From: Taenia hydatigena
Taxonomy: Eukaryota > Platyhelminthes > Cestoda > Cyclophyllidea > Taeniidae
Assembly (NCBI GenBank): GCA_036345935.2
Contig: JADWOT020000010.1
Location: forward strand, 6,932,587 to 6,996,586
Length of the DNA: 64,000 nt
Direction: 5' to 3'
A program made the translations under genes and the position numbers. Below the pieces are notes generated by a model. That model worked only from the letters and a program-made list of their open reading frames with translations, was not told the DNA's origin and ran no database searches. Positions 7,950-64,000 of this stretch are shown piece by piece (the stretch's first letter is position 1; each line of letters starts with the position of its first letter).

Positions 7950-9535
7950 CCACTCTCTCTGAAGAGCCGCTGAAAACATCACAATCGATTCCTTTGAGGC
8001 ACAGCAAAGCCAAGGACTCACTAGACTTGACTTTTAGTTGTGCCACTGACACCAAAATACAGCCGGCAGCGAGTTAGTTGATCTCACATTGGAATGCCGA
8101 GGTGTGCCTCCCCGTGACTAGTCCACGGCCACCAAACGTCAAGTTGGGTTCAGGCTACCGTCACCATTCTAATAAACTTATCATGTCCTTATTTGCTTAT
8201 GTTGATTTCATTTAATGCGTCCGAGATTCAAGTCGGCACAACAGGTCATCCTTGCCTAATGAACGATCCGTGTCAAACATATGTGACGCAACGGAATGAT
8301 TGAACATTTTAAATGACGACAGCCTCTAATTTTAAAATCGTTAGATATTACAGCAACAAAATAGCGTTGCCTTTACCTTGTTAAACTTGTTGCCTGCTTA
8401 GAAGCCAACGTGCTTGCGAACGTTGATTTAGATTGTCTATGTAGAAAAGTTTACTGTCAAGCATTTTGCCCAATCGAAAATAAAGCAGAGCAAATAGTTT
8501 GCGTTTACTTTTTTGCGCAGAAAAGCCTTGTTGTATTTGAAAGCACTTGTTATGATCTGCAATATATTCTCATCTACTCAAACACGTTTGCGGTCTAGTC
8601 CGGATATGCTTTCGGTGGATATTTACACGATGAAGAACACGATAAATAAATTCATGTCTTATTTACTCTTTCGCCAACTGAATTCCAGCTTACAATTTAA
8701 CCACTAAACATTAGATAATTTATTTGAATAACTGTTAAGTGCCTCAAATTCGCCTGGCATTATCATGCAATCTTGGTCAATGTGCATGCAGTGGAACTTC
8801 GAAGTGTTACGCGATCCACAGTCGAGTGGACTCTGCGGAATTCAGCCAGCGCAAGCTTTTAGGCGAGAGAAGTGTGATTCCGCCTCTGTGTTGTCTATTC
8901 ATTTCGACAATATCATGGTATGAATGGCTTGTTGCGGACTCCATTTAGGACAATTAGTTGTGGTAGCTGGCCTGCCTCACCTCAATTTTACGCCTTTCGC
9001 AAAATAGACAGCAGGATGATTAAATCGTCAAACAATGATTATGCTGAGCGAATTTGGCATCCATGGTGAAGAGGCGATAGGGACTAATAGCACCTTCTGT
9101 GATACGAACACAAAGTCAGTCGACAATGTTTAAAGACGAATCGCCCTTGCATTCATATAGTTGTGTAGTGAGAGAACGAATCGAATGTTCACTCAAATCC
9201 ATTGCCTCCATGCGCAAACTGTGGTGAGTGAGTCAAAAATCCTTGTAAGTGGCTTCTTTGCTAGTCACAGTTGTTATCCGAACGAGAGCTTGTGGAGTAA
9301 ATTTTGTTAAGACGTGGATGTCGGACCTGGAATCGTGTTTCGGAACAAACTATTCATAATTGGGTTAACACGTAGATCCCAGACAAAGCCGCACCTACCG
9401 AATCTAGGAAGCAAAGCTGCTTCATCTCCTCTTCTATCAAGAATCCGATTATTCGGCGTTAAAAATACAAGCACCATTCTCTCCTCCATTGTTCCGTCCA
9501 TCCCCATTGTAGGCATTTGACTCCTAAATTCTGAC
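7950..9535 (+). repeat. Tandem unit C, first copy
   Basis: Colinear with 9935-11680. Matching landmarks: ATCGAGGTGTGC-type block (8095 and 10028), the AACGATCCGTGTCA block (8263 and 10198), ATAACTGTTAAGTG (8729 and 10918), GGACAATTAGTTGTGGTAGCT (8950 and 11138), TTGTGTAGTGAGAG (9161 and 11354) and GACGTGGATG/GACGTGGGTA (9312 and 11504). The 8200-8420 part also resembles 2210-2400 and 7090-7260, so one sub-repeat occurs four times in the first 10.5 kb. Confidence 0.75.
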
Positions 9536-9934: not shown

Positions 9935-11680
9935 GGCATAGCAAAGGTGGGTGCTGCTTAACTCGGCTCATAGTTATGCCATTGGCGCTAAAATACAACC
10001 TACAGAGAAATGGATGATCTTGCATTCGAATATCGAGGTGTGCACTCCAGTAATCACTCCATGGCCGCAAAACCACAAGTTGGGTTAAGGCTATTGCCAT
10101 CAGTCTAATTAAATGATCACGTCTTTCTTTGACTATGCTGATACCACTTTGTGCGTCTAAGGCTCAAGCCGACATAGCCGATCGTTCCTGCTTAATAAAC
10201 GATCCGTGTCACACGTATGCGGCACAATGGAGTAATAGCTCATTTCAGTGGCAGCAATCGCCTGTTTTGAAAGTCATTTAACGTTATAATAAAAAGACAT
10301 GACAATGCTTGTAGGTTGCTGAAAACGTTTGCTATCTGGAAGCCAATGTGATTGCAAATGTTGATTTGCATTGCCTGTGCAGAAAACCTTCAATATCACT
10401 CTTATGGTTTAGTCGGAATTTAGGCACTGCAACCATTTAATATTTAAGTTTTGCATAAATGCACTTGTTGTGACCTGCAAGATATTCACCTCGACTAAAG
10501 CATGGTTGCAGCCTTGATTAGATATGCTCCCACTGAAATAAGACGTACATGTTTTGGATATTTACAAAATCATATCTTCTTTACCCCTTCGTCAACAGAA
10601 TTGCAGCTAACGTTTTAACTATTACAAATGAGATGCGTGGCCAAGGTTAGACTTTGATTGCCTTATTGTAACACTTATGTCGTTTTAGCAGTTTTTAAAG
10701 TTTGCAATCAAATAACAAAATTAGAAGTCCTTGAGACCTCTCCAAAGACAAAGAGAGACCTAGCATATGGATGGAAAGCAGAACAGAAGGGGAATCCGAA
10801 GTGATTGCATGGCCGAAAGACCAGTTTGCCTAGAGGTGGCAAAACGACCAACCAAGTGTCCGCAACGGGAGCCAGAATTTAGGCAAAAGGCATGGTGTTG
10901 CAAAACCACTTATTCGAATAACTGTTAAGTGTCTCAAGTGTGCTTGACATTATCACGCTACCTTAATCAATGTGACATCAGTGAGGTCATGAAGCAGTAC
11001 ATGACCTGCGTTCCAGTAAACGCTGCGCACTTCGGGTAGTGCAAACTTTTGAGCGAAGGAACTGTAGTTTCCCTTCTGTGTTGTCGTTTCATCTTGAACA
11101 TTTCATGGTATTGACGGCTTGTTGTTGGCTCTATCTAGGACAATTATTTGTGGTAGCTAAAATCCTTTGTCTCGATTTTTACGCCTTTTGCAAAAAAATA
11201 CACACCAGAATAAATAAATCATTAAACAATGACTATGCTGCATAAAGATCGCACCCGGAGTGAATAGGTAATGGGTACTTAAAGTAGCTTCTGCGGTACC
11301 AACGATAAATCCGTCGGCAATGTCTATGAAGGAATTGCCCTTGCATTCGCCTAGTTGTGTAGTGAGAGGACGATTCGAATGTTCACAGAAATTTGTAGCC
11401 TTCATGTGCAAGCGGTGGCGAATGATTTGGAAATCCTTGGAAGTAGCTGCTGCATTAGTCCCAGTTGTAATCCAAATGCGAGCCTGTAGGGCGAATTTTA
11501 TGAAGACGTGGGTATAATATCGCTGAATCGGCCTTCAAAACAGACCATTTAGATTTGGGCTAGCGCGTAGGGTCCCAGACGACGCAGCACCTACCGACTC
11601 TAGGAATCAAAGCTGTTTCTCTTCCTTTGACCATTCATCTATTGTCAGATTGTTTGGTAGGTTGGTAGGAGACAAAGGGC
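9935..11680 (+). repeat. Tandem unit D, second copy of unit C
   Basis: Second copy of 7950-9535 with an extra 270 bp or so inserted between about 10625 and 10905. Between the two units (9536-9934) is unique sequence. No coding frame is conserved between the copies, so the unit looks non-coding or long dead. Confidence 0.75.
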
Positions 11681-16119: not shown

Positions 16120-16500
16120 GCTCTATCCAACCAATCAACACGCAACTCGCTTAGGCGGCACCACCCGATTTAGGCGTAATGGAAGCAAAGTTGGAAACAA
16201 CGTGTGGTAATTGTGGTGTGAGAATGCTTTCATTACCACAAACTTCCAGATCACAGTTTCTTTGACGTCTACGCCTGCTTCGCCACAAGGCGTACTGATT
16301 GGAAGCCTTGCATCCAATCACAATTTGTCACAGCCTCACGCTTCTTCTCATTCGTTAATGACTACACACTCGAAAGAATGAAGCAGTATGCTGACTCCGG
16401 TATGCACAAGTTTGTAGGTGATGAATAGTGTGAGCAGAGGTTACAGCTCCAAATAGATGTGTGGAGGCACAAACAAAGCGCTGGAGAATGNAACAGGTGG
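16120..16500 (+). repeat. Diverged repeat pair, copy 2
   Basis: Same-orientation partner of 4450-4850. It contains one ambiguous base (n) at 16491. Nothing coding is visible; long open frames on the minus strand here have no homology support and overlap the repeat. Confidence 0.7.
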
Positions 16501-19500
16501 CAAAACAATTTGACGGCCGAGTTAATGGAGATGGTGCAGTGGGCCTGTTTCCATGCCACATGGAGAAGGACTGTATCTTTATACGTCCAAGCATGTTTAT
16601 GATTAGTCGGTCCATGTCGGCATTTGACTAAGTGCTTAAAAGCGCTCATGATAAATAATATACAATGGAACTTGAAAGGATCTACACTTTTTATTAATGC
16701 AGTGGGTGGATTGGGAACAAAATAAAAGTGATTTTGAATTGTCAAGCCATAGGAAATACATCAGCTCAATACGCGTACCTTTGCAGAGGCGTTTTCTCAG
16801 GCTGTACTAGTAGCTTTATCCCTCAACATTTAACCAATGCGTTTAGAAATAAGAATTTTTCAAGTATCGGTAACTCTGGAATGCAAATTTGATGCATCAA
16901 AAGCTGTCTGCTTGCATTATCTGACTTAACTAGTCGGTCAGAAGGAATGCTTGATTTTGCGACCAGATATTCCAGACTTTGTCTGCTTTCCCGCGGACCG
17001 CCTCATCACACGCGTGGCATCCGGTGGCGTGTACTCGCAGACACCAAGACGCACTTCTTTGCCTCAGCCCTGGTTGCTAACCTCCCACATCGAATTTAAA
17101 TTGCGAATTTACTCATCGCCTTACATTGTTCGACATACACGCTAAGTTCACTTTGAAGGCTAAAGAATGTGGATTCGATAATTTGGCATCATTAATTTTA
17201 CTTTCTAATGACTAAATTTACGCTCGTCCAAATATTGTTTAAATGAGAGGGCATCAGCTTCAGATCGGCGAGCGTTACGAGTTAGGAGGCATAGTCGCAG
17301 TCATAATCAGAATTCAAGTCGAGGCCAAAGCTAACCTCAAATCGTGTGATTGTTAGTGAGATGCGAAAGGTAATGCCTTCCCTTCTCTTCATCCACTACT
17401 TCTTTTCCATACCTTTACCTACTTATAGCCCACTAGTAGATGCTTCTCTCTGTAATAAACTGGATGAAATTTGAGTGTGTCAAAGCAGAGGCTAAAAGAA
17501 ACACACAATGCGTTGGTGCGAGCATCTTTATACAATCTTTTCTCTTTTGCTCCCCCTTTTTAAAATAAGCAAGACAATATGTTATCAAACATCCACTTTT
17601 CACTTCCCACAGTGTGGTACCGCCCAAAGGCCGGTGAAAGTTAGGAGTGCGCACTAGGCGAGTTGCGTGTCGTTTAGTTGCATAGAGCCGACCACATAGA
17701 GCCCTGCCTCAGCAGGCACCNNNNNNNNNNNNNNNNNNNNNNNNNNNNNNNNNNNNNNNNNNNNNNNNNNNNNNNNNNNNNNNNNNNNNNNNNNNNNNNN
17801 NNNNNNNNNNNNNNNNNNNNAATTTCCTTAACTCCACCATCACCGAAAAGTCAGATAAGATAAATGGGCACATCCGCCATTTATGAAAATGAGCCATAGC
17901 TTCTTAGTCATGGCATGGATATCAAAAATGGCAGGTGACTTGTGATGGAACAAGTCACAAGAGGACTTTTGACTTCAGCTCGGCGCTGAGATACCCAGTG
18001 TGTCTTACACATATGCGCTTGTTTTGATGAGCTGCGGAGTCTCAGACCAAACTAAGTGATTACATAATTTAACGCAGTGTTGGTGTTGGTGTAGCCAGGT
18101 TCCCATTAGCAGACTGAAACACTGTCCGTCTACGAAGTCACAGTGTAACACCTATGAGATCGTGAGGTCAATCCGCCCAGTACTAAGTTGATCGCCATTG
18201 TCTAGCTTCAGCTCTTCTAGTTGCATGTGATTTCACACAGTAAATGTTGGGAAAGTCATTGTAAAAAGAGGAAGCAGTGTGACATAAAATTACCGCTCCA
18301 CTTTTGTTAGCTTGTCGTTTAATTTTTTTTCAATTGTCCAAAAAGAACTGTTTTAGCCAACAAAAGAGCAAGCCTAACTAAATTGGATTAGCATTCTTGA
18401 GTTTTGTTTGGAGGTAGAGGGAGGGGTTATGATTGGCAATGATGAATGGAGGCCAATGGTGACGCTACGATCACGCTCAAGTACCCTTCTGCCACAAAAA
18501 CAAAATATCGACGGGCTTTTATAAGTTATTGCCGCAAATGTCGACACAGACGCCAAGTAGGCGTTGACACCAACCCAGATTTACAAATTAGTGTTAAATA
18601 AATTTACATTCTGATTGTCGCATGTGGGTTTTGGCAGAGGGGTAAGTGAGGAGCCACCAAAAGAAGTAGAATGCCAGTTTGAATAGAGAAAGGAGAAATA
18701 GAAAGCAGGGAGAGGTAATACTTTCGGCTATTTACAGAGGCCACAGTCTGTCGGACATTAACAACACACAAATGAAAAATTTCGAAAAAGGGCATGTACT
18801 CAATGGTCGAGGACTGAATTAAAATCAGTCTTCTGTCACAGCTTGAAGATGCAAGAATTATGCCGTCTCTAATCGTCTTCACTGCGATCGAAGTAACATG
18901 AATGTCTGCATTAATATGCATAGGCACCCACATTATCCATCAATCATCAGTTAGGCATTAATCTCGGTTGTCTTAATGGTTTGATGTTCCAACTGTTTGT
19001 GGTTTTCGCAGTTGCTGTAAACCATCGGAATGTGTTAAATAACTGCATTCCGACGCGACGGATTTTTACCTTCGCTTCAATTTCTTGTTCTGTACCATGC
19101 TTCCAAACTTCCTTTGAATCGGGCACATTTTGTCTGCTTACTTTATGCAGACACTTCAATCCACCACTAAAAAGTCCGTGGTCACGAAATTCTCACAAGT
19201 GCAAATTCAGAATACAGTGTTTAAGAAGGGTGTGGATGTGTGCGCCGTACCCTACCCATCGTTGTATTATGCTCTGCATCTTAAGAGGACTGTGTGTACA
19301 TGAGCTAGTGGTCGCGTTTTCTAATTAATGCAGAGATTATGTCATTGATGGCGCATTTATGTGTGTGCAGGATTGCTGCCTGCCAGCCCTATCAGAGCGG
19401 CTGTCACTACTGATTGCCTCGACAATGAGCGTGCTAATTGAGCCACTGAAAGCGATGCAGGTGGTGGCGATGACGGAGCAATGCGCTTTGCGATGCCCTT

Positions 19501-29218: not shown

Positions 29219-29501
29219 AATCAGTAGGAAAGTCTAAAAGTCTTGAGAACGTAGAGCCTCCTCAATCTTTAGGCTCAAAGTGCAGCAAGAGTGCCGTACA
29301 GAAGAAGAGCACAACAAAGACTACCGTTGCATCATCTGCGGATACACGTTTGACCACCTGGATGTAGTGCTATACCACGCTGAACAGCAGCATCCCACCG
29401 GACGAGATGTCATTAATCGGTCGCGTCTTCAACTTCTGCGTGCTGCATTCGATCCCATGGGCTATCGCCTCAAAAATGCAGATAAAAATGAGAGTGTCTA
29501 A
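29219..29501 (+). pseudogene. Dispersed last-exon fragment of the zinc-finger family
   Basis: The 3' half reads in one frame from 29280 to the stop at 29499-29501 and encodes a finger like finger 3 of the intact gene: YRCIICG then HLDVVLYHAEQQHPT, with Cys-X2-Cys-X12-His-X4-His spacing intact, followed by a related RSRLQLLRAAFDP tail (RARLMRAALNP in the intact gene). Upstream homology continues, but in another frame: VEPPQS here equals LEPPQS in the intact gene, so a frameshift separates the two parts. No counterpart of exons 1-4 is visible in the 250 bp upstream. It looks like a decayed exon fragment about 25 kb from its relative; use as an internal exon of another gene cannot be excluded. 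Confidence 0.7.
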
Positions 29502-47500: not shown

Positions 47501-47904
47501 GCTCCATTTGGTGCATTCTGACTTTGTGTAATCAATTTCTAAACTATTTGCACTACATTGCGGTGGCTTCGTAACATCTAACGTCATAAAATTGAACTGA
47601 ACTACACAGGAACGAAGCAACCTAAAATTTGAGACATAACGCACTATTTTTGCAGCCGCAAGACAAAATACTGTGGTTCAACAGAAGGCTCACCTTGTTT
47701 GGCACCTGAGTCTTGATAGGATCAGTTTCATATCAAACCTGGTGATCTCGGCTGCACTTTGCCCTTTATTAAAAAGACGGAAGATCATCAATGCAAATAA
47801 TCCTATAAATAAGCGCCCACTGATGGGTGATCAGTTAGACGGGCTTACATCAAAAGACACTCCCTACCAATAGGACATTATGAATGCCACATGTGATTAG
47901 CTTG
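44524..47904. other. Nothing recognised
   Basis: No second spliced-leader copy and no supported exon found here; SL genes are often multicopy, but only one is in this window. Confidence 0.45.
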
Positions 47905-48375
47905 GAGGTAGATAGAAGGTGTGTTCTCATTAGAAAGCCTGTTACTTTGCATTTTAAAGGCACAAAATTCAGTATTGCCATGAATCAAAAGCCTGCCATC
48001 ACGAGTTTGGTGCAGGTTGGCACACTCCTTTTCGCTTCCATTGTTTATGGGGAGAAAGATAGCAGTTGGTCCATAATGACTGTCTTGGAACAACGTTGAA
48101 GTAGCTATCATTTCATTGGTAGATGGTAAGTTAGACGACGACGTTGACCGTGCTTGAGATGCAGGCTGGCATGACCGCCAAAATTTCGTAATCCGTTGTC
48201 GGAGGTTTTGATGGTTCCGATGCATTTAGAAAGCTAGAACAGAAGTTAACGTCGTGTTTACAGGCACTAGCACGCACACGCAGCATGGAGGTAAGATGGA
48301 TCCCTCGATGAGAAGCGTCTGACAAAGTGCCTTCTCTTCTAAATCGCATCTAATTCATACATCCGTGCTGAGTCT
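47905..48375 (+). repeat. Interspersed repeat pair, copy 1
   Basis: About 470 bp closely matching 63511-64000 in the same orientation: GGTAGATAGAAGGTGTGTT, ACTTTGCATTTTAAAGGCAC, CATAATGACTGTC.TGGAACAACG and GACGTTGACCGTGCTTGAGATG are shared with few changes. On the minus strand a frame reading QDSHYGPTAIFLPIN then KECANLHQTRDGRLLIHGN is open here but broken in copy 2. The family may derive from a processed transcript or a non-autonomous element; I do not recognise it. Confidence 0.75.
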
Positions 48376-50622: not shown

Positions 50623-52899
50623 AAAAATTAATGGATCCCTGATGTCTTTTATGCCTCTAGAAGGTTATATATTCTCAAACAGGAGTTGAGACGGATAGGC
50701 ATCCATCTGTTCAGCCGTTGCAGAACTCCACAACAATCGCACAGATCCACCCTTTTTTCAACAGTGCATTAAAAATACTAGTGTGCTTCTGGTGGCTATC
50801 CAATCTGAAAACATTTCCTTGCATTTGTATCGCCAGGTGCGGTGACTATGGCCCAAAATGGCAGAAACTTACGACAGCTTCCGGTGGCTACGTCGATCGC
50901 CTTTAAGAGGCATGAGATGTAGCGCCTTAGTGATACAGCCCTTGCATTCCCACAATTATCACCGTTTCTGGGAGCCTTTCCTCTAAGTTGCGCTGTACAT
51001 ATCTTGGCGTTAATGATGGCGCCGCTTAACTGGCAGCACCTCATGCTGCCAAACCAGCAGTCCTCTGACAAAGAAAATGAAAGTCCCCAATTCCATTCGA
51101 GTGGGGTTAAAGTGCTTGCATTATCAGACACTACGTTTAACGGTAGGAATTTTAGGTCGTCTGATGTTCTTTACTTCTGATTTTACAAAAAGTCGCGCTC
51201 AGCTCTTCCCAATTTGACTTAGTGATTTCATGCCCTGTTTCCTTTTGTCCCCACCACTAATGGGTATTTACGAATTCGTCCTTGTATTGGCCCTCATCTC
51301 CTCCGTAGACCCGTTAGACGTGAGCCAATGACAAGGAATTCCAAAAGCTTCAACTTGTTAATCCATCATTTCCTGCTAGACTTTGGTGCAATGGACTCAA
51401 TTTTGCTCGCCGTTTGGGCAATTGATTGTGTGTGGGGGGTTTGTGGACAAAGTAACGAACCAGAGGAAATGTTCTCCTGTATTGGATTAAATGTCCTTAA
51501 AATGTTCACGTTCTCTGCTGATCGCAGGTTTTGTTAGCTATGACAAATCCGTGGGTGCATGGAACGCGATGCGTGCCAGGAATGGTTGCGTTGTGGGAAG
51601 GTAAATATTAAGGACTAAGCTGCAGTTAGAGACAGAACTTTTATAAACTACTGCTCTTAACGAATATAGTAACACCTGCTAGTGTGCCTTTCTAAATGTA
51701 TTTATTTCCTAGCAATTGATCAAAACCAATGTGTCTCACACTTTGCGCTGTCCAGCAGATCGTTGATTGATTATCATCTTTTGTGAAATCTGTACCAACT
51801 TCGTAAATTGGCATATTTGTCTAAGAGTAAGTAATCTATTGCATCATAAGCATTCCGTTATGCTTCGGCTTTTTAATTAAAATATTTTTTTAGGTTTTTC
51901 GTACTCTTGCACGAGGTCTTGTATGCCACCTATTTGCGTTTGCATGGATGTCATTGATCTATTTAGCTTTTGACCTTGCCAAAGTTAATTCCTAAATTCC
52001 CTATAAACCTGCTGTGTTGCATAGCTATCACCTTGTGTGATTGCAGTGAATTCAGCGCAGCCTTACAGAGATTTACACACTATGCGCCACTGCCAAGTTG
52101 GTCAGTAAAGGACGGCAATGAGTGCTGGTGTTGAGCCATGGCCTTAGGATTTTCTACAAAGTTCCTGCTGAATCAGCCAACTTTGTTAATTCATTGGCTC
52201 CTAATGGAACAAGTTGTAGAAAAGGCGGATTCTAAGAGATCGACATTGTGAACAGTTTGCGAAATACAAATGCCAGCGGCCTGAAAACCTTTTCCTACCC
52301 ATCCGCAATATTCGAAAAGGCAATGCTTCGGGAATCTGTGCTACTTCAATAAAATGCCTTAGTGTATCTTAACATAACAAAGTATTATAATAAATTTTAT
52401 TAAACATCCAAATATTCTGCACAAATACCCACTTAAAGCACGAAAATAGCCGCATTTTGCCTGCATCCACCCTTCGATGCGCCTATTTTATGCTGCATAA
52501 ATCTTGCTTTGAATCATTGCATTACCGCGAAGTAACTTTCCTTCGATTCTTAAAATTGTGTGCTGCTTTTTGGTTGCCAAAATAAAAGGGTTGTTATTAG
52601 CTTCCCTTAAAGTTCGTGGTTTGGCAATTCATGTCAGTATCCACAAGCTGCTTCCTCAACGTCCCCTTCCCTGTGGATATTATACCCCTATTTAAGCAGA
52701 TGCGTCACTCAGGTCAACAAGTGTCATGATTTGCCACTAAAAGGAATACCTTGCAGGTCCGAAAGCAAGGCATCCTCATTGTGGTAAAACGGCAAAAGCG
52801 AAGCATTTCTGATAATGCTTAGATACTGTCGCTTCTGCTGAAAATGTTCATTCTTGTTTTCTGAAGAACTCAGCTCTAGATTGTCTAGCTAACGGAGCG
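50623..52899. other. Nothing recognised
   Basis: Intergenic sequence leading to the inverted repeat. The 111-codon minus-strand frame at 50796-51131 lacks family or splice support. Confidence 0.45.
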
Positions 52900-54010
52900 C
52901 AGAACATACGAGAAAAAATGTACGAAGCCGAATTACTGACACGATGCAGAGATCATGACCTGCTTCTGTGGCTTGTAATGCATAGGTATAGGTGATCGCA
53001 TGCATTTGCGTGAAGTTAGTCAAGTGTTTTAACACTAGACGAATCTTCGAACCCTACTAATCTGCAATCAGTCAAAAGAGTCTATCAGCGATGTCAAGTA
53101 ATCTTAATACTACGTCAACTCTGGCCTATTTAGCTTATTGAATCGTGGATTTAAGGACATTTTGCGTGATCGAGCTTACTGTATTAGTTCTTAAAAATGC
53201 AACCTCATATTTAAATGCACTGCTAAGTTCGTTTATGCACAGCATAAAAATATGCAATTTAAGTCCCAGGAGTGAGCCTTGCTCACGAGAATAATGCTGT
53301 GAATATCGCAAATGATGTCTAGTCACTAAAATTTTAGAGATGAGCCAAGTTCAGGACCCGCAGAGGCCAGAAAGTAAGACTGTGGAAACTCAAGTGATAA
53401 ATGCCTGATGTTTTTGTATGAAGGCCTTTCGTGCTTTTAAAGGAGCGGAGGAACTGCCAAAGCAGGAACGCGTGGTCTCAGATGCATCGATTGGAAGTTA
53501 CAACGATGAGATGGGCGACGAGGGAAGATTAATCCAAGCACTTATGACCAACCCTGAAGACGAGATTAATTTTCTGGAGGAGATAAAAGTAAATATGTGG
53601 TTTGTTAATTATCACGTGTGTCTAAATTTAGTGGCGATTTCTTTACCTATATCACCACGTATTTGCCTTAGAAGATGCTCAAGAACAATGACTCCCAACT
53701 AACCCACATGTTCGGTGGGAATGTCATCAAGAACCCATTAGTACCTGACCGAGCGGCGCAGATGGAATGCCTAATGGATTTGCTCTGTACGCGGCTGTGG
53801 TATAAAGCTATGCAACTTAGATGCCCATCATGAGGAAGTTTGTATGCTAGTGCACTATTCTATTCGTCTAAGACAACTTTCCCATTCTGAGCAATCCTGC
53901 TTAAAGCTTGTTTTGTATCCTTGCGGAAGGCGAGAAGAAAGCTGGTGGTGATTACAAATGTACTAAGTGTGGTAAAGAGTATTACAACTTGGATGGCATG
54001 CACCAACACC
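52900..54010 (+). repeat. Left arm of a large inverted repeat
   Basis: About 1.1 kb whose reverse complement recurs at 54698 to about 55790. The match includes promoter-side sequence, for example the block around 53030-53110 with TTTTAACACTAGACGA and ATCAGTCAAAAGAGTCTAT, which matches reverse-complemented sequence near 55620-55700. The inner boundary at 54010 is sharp; the outer boundary near 52900 fades and is approximate. The arm contains exons 1-3 and part of exon 4 of the broken zinc-finger copy. Confidence 0.85.
53340..54010 (+). pseudogene. Inverted, truncated copy of the zinc-finger gene
   Basis: This plus-strand copy mirrors the intact minus-strand gene. Equivalents of exons 1-3 are at 53340-53373, 53443-53588 and 53672-53786, with the same lengths (34, 146, 115 nt), start codon and splice sites as the intact gene. 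The exon 4 equivalent begins at 53873 but meets an in-frame TAA at 53902-53904, where the intact gene reads AAA TGC after Ala108. Homology then stops at about 54010 inside finger 1, just after the codons for HQH, so finger 1 loses its last histidine and fingers 2 and 3 are absent. At best it could make a protein of about 108 residues with no zinc finger. Exon 2 differs from the intact gene mainly in its first half (for example DASIGSYNDEM against DAPSGSFNDEM); its second half is identical. Confidence 0.85.
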
Positions 54011-54207
54011 GATGGCTCACACCTAAGGTGGAGTAGCAAAGCACCATACCAAAAAATATGTTAACTGGACACGGTTGCGAAAGACCTTAAAGGGAATAAG
54101 TATCAGCTTGTTATAGAAGAAGCGCGAAATTTTTGTTAAAGAAGCAGTCACAAAGAGCGTTATACATATACATATGTGTCAGCACCTAGATACACTTTCT
54201 CTTAAGT

Positions 54208-55378
54208 CTAGCTGGTAGGATTCCGAGCATCCTCTTCCTCATCTGCATTAGGATTGAGTGCAGCACGCATGAGGCGAGCACGCAACCGGCCAATGAATTC
54301 GCGTTCAGTTGGGTGCTCCTCTTCTGTGTGTGATAACATCACATCCAATCGATCAAAAGCGGATCCGCATACACTACAGCGGTACTCTATCCTGCGCCTT
54401 TTTTCAGGAGGATGCCCCTTCAGATCTTCGGACATAGAGGACTGAGGAGGCTCTAGGCCATCAGGTCTTTTCAGTCTTCTCAAAGCTTCCTGAATTGATG
54501 GCGGCAGCTCAAATACATCTTTTAAAAGAAGTAAAAGGCATTATTCATTGTAATTAGTAGTAGAGCAAGGAACACTGACTGCAATCACACCTTACCACCA
54601 TGTATCGTCTTTCTGTGGTGTACCATATCCGTAAACGTGTTGCATCCCTCGAAGCATTGCACGCAGAAGTAGAACCTGCATTTACTGTGGCGCAGGAGGT
54701 GTTGATGCATGCCATCCAAGTTCTTATACTCTTTGCCACACTTGGTACATTTGCATTTACCATCAGCTTTCTTCTCGCCTTCCAAGAGGGCATAAAACAA
54801 GCATTTAGCAGGATTGCTCAGAATGGGAAAGTTGTCTTAGACGAATAGAATAGTGCACTAGCATACAAACTTCCTCATGATGAGCATATAATTTGCATGG
54901 CTTTATACCACAGCCGCGTACAGAGCAAATCCATTAGGCATTCCATCTGCGCCGCTCGGTCAGGTACTAATGGGTTCTTGATGACATTCCCACCGAACAT
55001 GTGGGTTAGTTGGGAGTCATTGTTCTTGAGCATCTTCTAAGGCAAATACGTGGTGATATAGGTAAAGAAATCGCCACTAAATTTAGACACACGTGATAAT
55101 TAACAAACCACATATTTACTTTTATCTCCTCCAGAAAATTAATCTCGTCTTCAGGGTTGGTCATAAGTGCTTGGATTAACCTTCTCTTGTCGTCCATCTC
55201 ATCGTTGAAACTTCCACTCGGGGCATCTGGGACCGCAGATTTCTGCTTTGGCAGTTTCCTTGCTCCTTTAAATGCACGAGAAGTCCTCATACAAAACCAT
55301 CAGGCATCTCTTACTTGACACCATTAGAATTTCTAAAGTCTTACTTTGTTTCCTCTTTGGGTCCTGACCTTGACTCAT
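54208..55378 (-). CDS. Three-finger C2H2 zinc-finger protein, five exons, intact
   Basis: Reading the minus strand gives five exons: 55378-55345, 55265-55120, 55036-54922, 54835-54596 and 54518-54208. All introns have GT..AG ends and are 77-86 nt, all phases match, and the spliced frame is 846 nt (281 residues plus TAG). Finger 1 has Cys128, Cys131, His144, His148; finger 2 Cys156, Cys159, His172, His177; finger 3 Cys226, Cys229, His242, His247, with a basic patch KRRR at 218-221 just before it. Residues 30-75 are charged and probably helical. The start is the first ATG before a GTAAG donor, and the inverted copy keeps both. C2H2 fingers usually bind nucleic acid, so a nuclear role is inferred; I do not recognise the family. 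The least certain junction is the exon 3 donor (GTACGC), chosen because phase and intron length fit. The alternative is read-through to a TGA shortly after residue 98. Confidence 0.82.
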
Positions 55379-55790
55379 TTCTTCTGAATTTTAGTGACCA
55401 GATATCATTTGCGACATTCGTGGCGCCAATCACCTGAGGGGATCTCACTCGTGAAACTTAAATTGCATGTTTTTTACTTTGCGTAAACAAAATTACCTGT
55501 GCATTTAAATATGAGGATACACAGTTAATAACTAGTACACCAAACTCAAACACGCAAAATGTCCCCAAATGCAATATTTAGAAAGCTAAATAAGTCAGAC
55601 TTGACGTAGTATTATTAGGATTACTTGACATCGCTAATAGACTCTTTTGACTGATTGCAGATTAGTAGGGTTCGCAGAATCGTCTAGTGTTAAAACATCT
55701 GTCGACCGCCGTGCGAATGCTTGCGATCACCTATACCTGTGCATTACAAACCACAGGAGCAGGTCACGACCTCATTATAGCTACTGCTTT
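54698..55790 (-). repeat. Right arm of the large inverted repeat
   Basis: Reverse-complement partner of 52900-54010, carrying the 5' part of the intact zinc-finger gene (exons 1-3 and the first half of exon 4) plus some 400 bp upstream. The spacer between the arms (54011-54697) holds the rest of exon 4, exon 5 and unrelated sequence. The outer end is approximate. Confidence 0.85.
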
Positions 55791-56590
55791 TGAAATTCAA
55801 TTCACGTTTGTCTTCTAGATGCATTCAAAAGCCTTAGCTATACCTCATTCCCTACCAAAGCTTTTTCTGCTATTGCTGGATTGGGGCATACCATAGTATT
55901 GTTATAACCTCATTCACAGACCAAAGCTTTTTTTGCAATTAACTGCTCACCCTTCAATTAAGTGCTTAATCCAGAAGTAGTCTGCAGTTGGAAACCATAC
56001 CTAAACCTGACAATGCAGTAAGACGCTAAATAAGTGTCACTACTTACTCCCATAATACTGTGCTTGACAGGCAGTTAGTCCCAACCTTGTCTTCGCCAGC
56101 ATTTCAACGATTTCATTTTGGCATTTAACTGCCACTAAAGCTGACCAAGTGGTAGTAGTGGGACCGAATCGTCGATGGGAATGGGTATTACCACTGCAGA
56201 GCTGAAAAGCATGGTTGCAATGGTATAATGAGATGATACTTTGATGAAACTAGAGCACGATCTGCACACTACCTTCAGGTCAAAATAAGCTCAGTGCGGT
56301 TCATGGATTGAGTTTATGGGATGCTACTCCCTGCAGCTGCCAAGTGCCAGGATGCCACGATATTTATGCGACCACTTCACCTATCTGACGACTCGTTGCG
56401 TATGGCCTAATCATCGTGCACTGATATGAGCCATCAATGCATGTTAATTTTATGCGCTTTTGCAGTCAGCTATTAATAGAGCAGAGTCGATGGTGAGCAA
56501 AGCAGACTACGGTCTCACTAATTTGTAGATTAAGTACACATTGCGGCATTATTTCTTCCGCACTCAATTCTCCCTCAATCGTTACGCAAG
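55791..56590. other. Spacer between zinc-finger locus and next candidate gene
   Basis: No feature seen beyond two copies of a CCAAAGCTTTTT-type stretch at 55857 and 55920, set in similar surroundings (a small direct repeat of about 60 bp period). Confidence 0.4.
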
Positions 56591-57506
56591 AGTCGCCAGT
56601 CCGACCAAGTCTGTCTACGATCCGTCACACCCATGCCCGCTCTGATGAGAGAGGTGTCGACACATTCCGGGAGGTTGTTCGGATATCCTGCACCTACATG
56701 ATTGCGTGCACATCGAAAATGACGTGTGGTCGACGTCGTGCTCATTTAGAACACAATAGCTTTTCAGGGATAATTGGGTGGCGAATGGGTGACAACGACA
56801 TGCAAAGTAGTCGTTCGCATCTATTTAAGCAATGGGATGAGTGTCTGTCAATGGGACAGGAAGTCTATTTCAATTTAGAGGGTAAGGCAAATGTAAAAGA
56901 ATCCCAAGAGGCAGAACATGAGGTGGATCCACTGGCAGCTGCGCCCTCATCGAAAGGATGTCATCGCCTCTTAATCGGCCTAGGATTGTAGTCATTGCAA
57001 TGAACGCATGCACTGCGACAAATTGGCTGCGTTAACGTATATGTAGTTGGGTAGGCGCGATCAGTTCACAGTGAAACAACTTTACTGCCCATTCACATTA
57101 AGGTGATCTGGTGTATTTCAGTCAGAATACGCAGTGATTCCGTAAGTCGATATTGCAAATGGTTGTTTTCAGAATTTTTTGCGAGTTACTCCTAAAATGA
57201 CTTCTCAATTGCACAGGATGCCATTTGTTTTGTGTTAAGAATAAGTTCTCGCTTTACTCTGTCGCTCTGTTGGAAATAGCCAAAGTATTCCAAGAATCTC
57301 AGGAAATACTGCCAATTTGTTGTGGAGAGAATGGTTTGCAGAAAGTGAAGTCAGAAGAGGTAAAACCTCAGCACATAAATGTTTGCTTCAATATTAGAGC
57401 AACGAATGCAGTGTCGAACGGCAGTGCAGCAGGTGACTATGGCAGCGTTGAGCAGAGTGTGACAAATGCAGATGAAATAATTAACGGAAACATAATCATC
57501 GATTAA
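56591..57506 (+). CDS. Candidate two-exon 3' end of an unrecognised gene
   Basis: Exon A (56591-56881) follows a pyrimidine-rich tract and an AG and ends at a strong G|GTAAGG donor. Its frame is open upstream to about 56492 as well, so its true 5' end is unclear. Exon B (57217-57506) follows a good TTCTCAATTGCACAG acceptor and ends in TAA. The phases match (1 nt left by A, 2 nt at the start of B), giving a product through ..NLEG-CHLFCVKNKF.. to ..NGNIIID. Visible pieces are a charged stretch (VKSEEVKPQH) and an acidic C-terminus; no motif is recognised. If unspliced, exon A continues to a TAG at 56989-56991. This is one of the better coding candidates outside the zinc-finger locus, but it has no homology support and the start is not located. 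Confidence 0.38.
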
Positions 57507-58212: not shown

Positions 58213-59141
58213 TAGTAGGTCATTGTTGGGTCCAGCATCCATCAATTAGGACATCACAATGAGGGATCCAGTAGCCGTCGTCCATCAGGCCTGGTTTGAG
58301 CGTGCACAGTAGAAGAGAATAGACACGAACTATAGAGTAAACGAAGCCCAATTGTTTTTGTTTTCCATATGAAAAAGGTGTTCACTGGGAATGCCACCAG
58401 AGGTCACCTACGCATTCGCACAATGCGTTAATAAAAATGCTGCTATCAGCTTAGCAGTAGAAAGATCAACACAACTGTGCCAGAGGGTAATTCACTAAGC
58501 GGGTCGATCCTCCCACCCTGTATCATCAACCAATGCTTTGCACAAGAATTATTTCAGCTTGCTCGCCTACAACCGAGTGATTTCTTCAGCACCCTAACGG
58601 CCCTAACTGCAGTTGGCATTACAATTTTAAGGCATGAAGCGTCAGTAAAACAACAGCATTATTAGCAGAGCTAATCACAACGCTGAGTATGTGAGACGAA
58701 TGTCACGACACTGAAGTAACCCACGAGCCCTTCATTTCGAGAAACATGGGGATAGTAAACCGCACTAGATTTTGGAATGTGGTATTGTTGGCTCAACAGT
58801 GAGTGAATTGCCAAAACTACGACAAAGGAAAATGTGGTAAACACCACGCCCCACTTCCATCCTTTTGGTGTTTTCACCCTCTACACAGTTCCATCAACCA
58901 ATACTTTCCAATCTGTGTCATTTCTGGGCAATGACAGACACCACGGTAGAGTAATTCTGAAAGTGTGTGTGGGACATGTCGATCCGAGTCCATCCTGGAA
59001 GCACTGACATTCATGTTACCACTAGGCAAAGACAACAACTCATGGACAGTGCGAAGTGCGTGTGACAGTCTTTTCGCTGCCTCCACACTTTATGCGAGGA
59101 TGGATTCCACATCCCCGACTGAACACTGACCACATCGTCAG

Positions 59142-63510: not shown

Positions 63511-64000
63511 TGGGTAGATAGAAGGTATGTTTTCGTCAGAAATCTTGTTACTTTGCATTTTAAAGGCACAAAGTCCAGCATCCTCATGAAGCAAAAGCCT
63601 GCCTTAATGAGTTTGGTGCAGATTAGCACGCTCCTTTACACTTCCAATGTTTATGAGGAGAAAGATAGCACTTAATCCATAATGACTGTCATGGAACAAC
63701 GTTGCAGTAGCTATCATCCCGTTGGTAGGTGATAAGTTGGACCACGACGTTGACCGTGCTTGAGATGTAGACTGGCATGACCGCCAAAATTTTGTGATCC
63801 ATTGCCAGAGGTTGTGTTGGTTCCATTGCCAAAAGGGGTCTTAAGCAATGCGCTGGTAGAAAGCTGAAACAGAAGCCAGCATCGTGTTTGCAGGCACGAG
63901 CGCGCACACGCAGAATAGAGGTAGGATGAGTCCCTCGATAAGAAACGTCTGACACAGTGTCTTCTTTTCTAAATAGCACCAAATTCATACATCTATGCTA
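63511..64000 (+). repeat. Interspersed repeat pair, copy 2 (runs off the window)
   Basis: Direct-orientation partner of 47905-48375. Homology still continues at the last base, so the element is cut by the window end. It has a roughly 30 bp insertion near 63815-63850 relative to copy 1, and stop codons where copy 1 is open on the minus strand. Confidence 0.75.

Follow-up and report, generated by a model that had tools for sequence, protein, structure and literature searches.

An Inverted Duplication of a C2H2 Zinc-Finger Gene in Taenia hydatigena with a Homogenized Core Probably Produced by Gene Conversion

Introduction

The human Y palindrome P6 is built of inverted arms lying near each other, which carry tracts of identity that have been ascribed to gene conversion. 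Crossovers reportedly invert the palindrome sequence on occasion, and conversion has been reported to outnumber inversion (PMC3723533). Gene families have also been described that are acted on by inverted or fold-back duplicates resembling them. In Drosophila, such duplicates constitute the hairpin RNA (hpRNA) loci Nmy and Tmy, and hairpin RNAs were reported to suppress drivers (PMC10618873). At the soybean I locus, an inverted repeat of chalcone synthase genes reportedly silences members of the family via small interfering RNA (siRNA) (PMC3804491).

In parasitic flatworms, the Piwi pathway has been reported to be absent and Dicer and Argonaute genes to be present; the endogenous RNA interference (endo-RNAi) set is described as reduced, with ERI-1 orthologues lost in taeniids, for which a paralogue may substitute (PMC8191739, PMC5594548). 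The silencing of mobile elements in tapeworms has been called an open question, and surveys of small RNAs in trematodes and cestodes reportedly yielded microRNAs (miRNAs) or endogenous siRNAs (endo-siRNAs), and no piRNAs (PMC6880638). In Schistosoma japonicum, more endo-siRNAs were attributed to transposable elements than to natural antisense transcripts (PMC2820009, PMC3149011), and endo-siRNA candidates with full complementarity to mRNAs have been reported (PMC2817716); hairpin RNAs are named in these reports as a class known from other animals (PMC2820009, PMC3149011, PMC2817716). Among the papers listed by searches of an open-access library, judged by titles and the starts of abstracts, none dealt with a tapeworm hairpin-RNA locus or with gene conversion between inverted copies in a tapeworm.

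Here, we analyzed a 64,000-nucleotide stretch of Taenia hydatigena DNA (the window), in which a zinc-finger gene and a truncated copy of it converge on a short spacer. In contrast to P6, this locus has short arms (1.1 kb) that match at about 81% outside a core, with homogenization confined to about 0.37 kb; conversion in P6 is also reported to be GC-biased (PMC3723533), whereas the core described here shows no rise in GC. For the Drosophila and soybean loci, siRNAs have been reported (PMC10618873, PMC3804491), whereas the present locus is known from sequence alone. If the core is real, the locus offers a compact and readable case of conversion between inverted duplicates in a tapeworm.

Anatomy of the Locus

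Comparison of the window with itself by blastn (word 11, E up to 1e-8) gave an inverted match between 52949-54010 on the plus strand and 55773-54698 on the minus strand, with 86.9% identity over 1080 columns and 22 gap positions. Among the seven self-matches of more than 120 columns listed for the whole window, this was the strongest (1188 bits, against 368 for the runner-up) and the only inverted one, and hence it is not due to chance. An inverted-repeat detection resolved the arms as three ungapped pairs. The locus is thus an inverted duplication, having two paralogous arms in inverted orientation. The copy-side arm (52949-54010, plus strand) includes 391 bp upstream of the copy's ATG, and the gene-side arm (54698-55773, minus strand) contains the 5' flank, exons 1-3 and part of exon 4 of the gene. 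The spacer between them (54011-54697, 687 bp) holds the 3' end of the gene (54208-54697) and a 197-bp segment (54011-54207) with no alignment to the gene. No known RNA family was found in 52000-57000 at the gathering threshold.

The gene itself lies at 54208-55378 on the minus strand and is predicted to encode a C2H2 zinc-finger protein of 262 aa in five exons (55378-55345, 55265-55120, 55036-54922, 54778-54596 and 54518-54208), with GT/AG borders and an open frame. The exon 3/4 junction was placed so as to match the Taenia solium homologues P0001 and P0002, and the resulting model agrees with the T. solium protein TSMEX_007070 through this junction. An alternative model of 279 aa, in which the junction is shifted, carries 17 extra residues relative to the homologues and was rejected; identity to TSMEX_007070 was 61% with the 279-aa model and 65% with the 262-aa model. 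A Pfam search with the 279-aa model returned 11 families up to E 1, none at its curated cut-off, and the top two were C2H2 fingers. Among 10 of the 17 stop-to-stop open reading frames (ORFs) of at least 110 aa, Pfam gave one match, far below its cut-off.

The truncated copy occupies 53340-54036 on the plus strand, with an open frame of 133 aa in exons 53340-53373, 53443-53588, 53672-53786 and 53930-54036. It holds exons 1-3 at the same lengths as in the gene (34, 146 and 115 bp) together with 81 bp of exon 4. The start codon is kept, and the GT/AG borders of its three introns (those between exons 1-3 and the one before exon 4) are intact. After 54010, the copy ceases to align to the gene, and a new stop codon ends at 54036. 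The copy consequently ends inside the first zinc finger, reading MHQHRWLT in place of the gene's MHQHLLRH, and its protein would be without the last His of this finger and everything beyond. From the C2H2 finger pattern, we take the lost His to be the last zinc-binding ligand. A retrocopy origin was rejected because the copy retains three introns as well as 391 bp of upstream sequence.

The anatomy of the locus thus shows a convergent pair of a gene and its truncated copy. This bears out the preliminary description, which had recognized two inverted arms of about 1.1 kb, a spacer of about 0.69 kb with the 3' end of an intact gene, the intact five-exon gene on the minus strand, and a truncated copy on the plus strand.

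The Gene Family

A profile search found 17 proteins at E <=0.01, among them seven from T. solium, three from T. asiatica, four from T. crassiceps and two from Echinococcus granulosus. All 16 matches that could be assigned to an organism come from Taenia or Echinococcus; this search reaches only relatives that share short words, and the family may be spread more widely. In two FastTree trees, from which the copy was left out, the window gene grouped with T. solium TSMEX_007070, T. asiatica P0006 and T. crassiceps TcWFU_008973 (support 1.000 and 0.845). The gene is related in sequence to the TSMEX_007070 family and shares its Cys and His positions over the fingers; it groups within this family, but its nearest protein is 65% identical. 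The gene thus belongs to a fast-evolving C2H2 family, and its relatives by themselves would place the window in a taeniid tapeworm.

The family is multi-copy, with 7 of the 17 matches coming from T. solium. TSMEX_003784, 003785 and 003786 bear consecutive tags and lie on contigs of equal size, and contigs of equal size also carry three T. crassiceps family proteins, which suggests that both sets are local clusters formed by local duplication. TSMEX_001213 and 001214 bear consecutive tags but lie on contigs of differing size. The T. crassiceps proteins P0010 and P0013 are nearly identical where aligned, with P0013 being without an inner part, a sign of either very recent duplication or two models of like loci. 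Elsewhere in the window, 29277-29498 on the plus strand matched the last exon of the same zinc-finger family (72% identity to P0003 and 68% to P0002). The first part of this match seems by eye to be frame-shifted, and no upstream exons were found near it by tblastn at E up to 10; judging from the sequence, it would be a remnant of another family member.

Mosaic Identity of the Arms

The preliminary description did not mention that the arms are mosaic in their identity. At 53529-53901 of the copy (plus strand), 280 bp (53529-53808) and 76 bp (53826-53901) are identical to the gene, and the partner segment of the gene is 54807-55179 on the minus strand, as counted from gap-free aligned rows. Within this core there are four differences, at copy positions 53809, 53816, 53820 and 53825; they fall within 17 bp, for which random placement gives P of about 2.7e-4, and this clustering fits two tracts or one discontinuous tract. 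Outside 53529-53901, identity is 81.4% over 688 columns. The longest identical run is 280 columns; when the 1061 ungapped columns were permuted 5000 times, no run exceeded 104.

Arm identity shifts sharply at both ends of the core. It is 81.0% in the upstream segment, 79.4% in exon 1, 82.6% in intron 1 and 80.0% in the first part of exon 2, and then 98.4% in the last part of exon 2 (where the one difference, at 53528, is just outside the core) and 100% in intron 2 (83/83) and exon 3 (115/115). In the last 28 bp of intron 3, identity is 71.4%, and in exon 4 it is 88.9%. The core thus spans the end of exon 2, intron 2, exon 3 and most of intron 3. Selection on the protein was rejected as the cause of the identical core because the introns share the identity. 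A tract of identity far above its flanks and independent of coding constraint is the pattern of recent interlocus gene conversion, or else of an assembly error. GC-biased conversion was considered and set aside: GC content is 41.6% in the core and 41.4% and 42.2% in the copy's flanks. The absence of differences in 280 bp gives a 95% upper limit of about 1.1% (rule of three), approximately 1/17 of the 18.6% found outside, and therefore the homogenizing event is young relative to the duplication. We regard this sharply bounded core as the modestly surprising part of the locus.

Origin of the Duplication and Its Homogenized Core

The locus is quite probably explained by an inverted segmental duplication of the zinc-finger gene at the DNA level, with recent gene conversion from arm to arm and with the copy being most likely a by-product. 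About 1.1 kb, made up of upstream sequence, exons 1-3 and part of exon 4, lies inverted directly downstream of the gene. The arms would have drifted apart until about 81% of positions matched, and some 0.37 kb at the core would recently have been re-homogenized, save for the four clustered differences, by conversion between the facing arms, as the identity profile suggests. TSMEX_007070 matches the gene and the copy (nearly) equally (14/27 each in the N-terminal part; 16/26 for the gene and 17/26 for the copy in the exon 4 part), so that either arm may have been the donor in the conversion. Both the inverted duplication and the gene conversion can be explained in ordinary ways, with no role for RNA.

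Conversion is the simplest cause of the core, and the main alternative is an error of assembly: the inverted duplication would be real, but the reads of one arm would have been placed in both during gap fill or consensus building. An identical stretch that exceeds a short read is hard to place, and the window bears signs of a draft scaffold, namely a run of 100 Ns at 17721-17820 and a single N at 16491. Nevertheless, no Ns lie near the locus, and the four clustered differences suggest that both versions were told apart there, so we consider such an artefact unlikely. A second functional gene is a still less likely account of the copy; its 133-aa protein, having no complete zinc finger, could for example compete with the full protein. 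The kept start codon and splice borders and the frame open to the new stop are in its favor, as is a 60-column block at 53025-53084, about 256-315 bp upstream of the copy's ATG, in which 58/60 positions are conserved between the arms (permutation p 0.027); this block may be a promoter element that the arms have in common, or a conversion tract of greater age. However, when the 67 codons outside the core were evolved neutrally 20000 times (with splice sites not simulated), a stop-free frame survived in 29% of the runs, and, being so common under neutrality, the open frame is weak evidence of a working protein. In these 67 codons, the copy and the gene have 34 differences, and the 20 amino-acid changes are about as many as the 22.8 expected without selection (P of <=20 = 0.16); dN and dS were 0.17 and 0.30 by NG86 and 0.20 and 0.18 by YN00, values drawn from 67 codons only. 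A protein search with the copy as query gave three candidates, none at E 0.01, although its sensitivity was low and it missed known family members too. The copy is thus most likely a pseudogene whose frame is still open, a by-product that is truncated and under weak constraint. It may still be transcribed, because its upstream side is duplicated too, and a protein may be made from it, which would be compatible with its open frame and splice borders.

Two further readings, both compatible with a duplicated and converted locus, would give the inverted arms a function. As the preliminary description proposed, transcription reading through past 54208 into the copy might yield an RNA that folds back on itself into a long double strand, from which Dicer could produce siRNAs against the gene family; conversion would then be retained as it keeps the stem matched. 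The geometry of the locus suits this scheme, its long inverted repeat being predicted to form a long duplex, as expected of an hpRNA or endo-siRNA locus. Folding prediction for the read-through RNA gave, when unspliced, a 285-bp helix without interruption, at -1378 kcal/mol (two mononucleotide shuffles reached about -638 and -641), and, when spliced, helices of 114 and 65 bp, corresponding by position to exon 3 and exon 2; such a fold is expected from any inverted repeat of comparable size and has no bearing on transcription. Downstream of the gene's stop, AATAAA/ATTAAA first occurs on the minus strand at 52401, a distance of 1806 bp that reaches beyond the copy arm; downstream of the copy's stop on the plus strand, it first occurs at 58430, after 4393 bp (a distance reached or exceeded at 4.5% of positions). 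This spacing would allow read-through, but it is only mildly unusual on the minus strand: 13% of sampled window positions have a hexamer gap of at least 1806 bp, which makes the missing hexamer weak evidence, and variant hexamers begin to appear 343 bp downstream on the minus strand and 255 bp on the plus strand. The statement in the preliminary description that tapeworms have Dicer and Argonaute and lack a canonical Piwi pathway agrees with what is reported for parasitic flatworms (PMC8191739). Flatworms were reported to retain two Dicer genes and Argonautes (PMC8191739, PMC5594548), and the endo-siRNAs of S. japonicum, which derive chiefly from transposable elements and to a lesser extent from natural antisense transcripts (PMC2820009), are likewise in favor; against it stand the reported reduction of the endo-RNAi pathway in parasitic flatworms (PMC5594548) and the conversion of inverted copies without such a function in the human Y palindrome (PMC3723533). 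A hairpin-RNA locus is accordingly one possible reading of several, and we think it improbable, yet the locus is the exact place to ask whether tapeworms, reported to be without Piwi, make hairpin-derived siRNAs.

The other reading, which we hold to be very improbable, is that recombination between the arms, made possible by the identical core, inverts the spacer, making the locus a two-state switch of promoter and N-terminus, with conversion as a by-product. Each arm has its own upstream side, exon 1 and start of exon 2, with equal exon lengths and phases, so that each inversion would join the other 5' half in frame to the single full zinc-finger body. The failure of TSMEX_007070 to favor either 5' half is allowed by a switch, yet is no evidence for it. 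If true, this would be a natural promoter and N-terminus switch in a tapeworm gene, and the locus is a place to ask whether such inverted repeats flip.

Other Repeats in the Window

Two direct repeats were observed apart from the inverted arms. The units at 47907-48363 and 63513-63993, one on each side of the locus, are 81% identical over 481 columns and possibly represent an uncharacterized mobile element; Pfam found nothing in the ORF at 47881-48225. The other pair, 8720-9430 and 10910-11626, is 73% identical over 725 columns.
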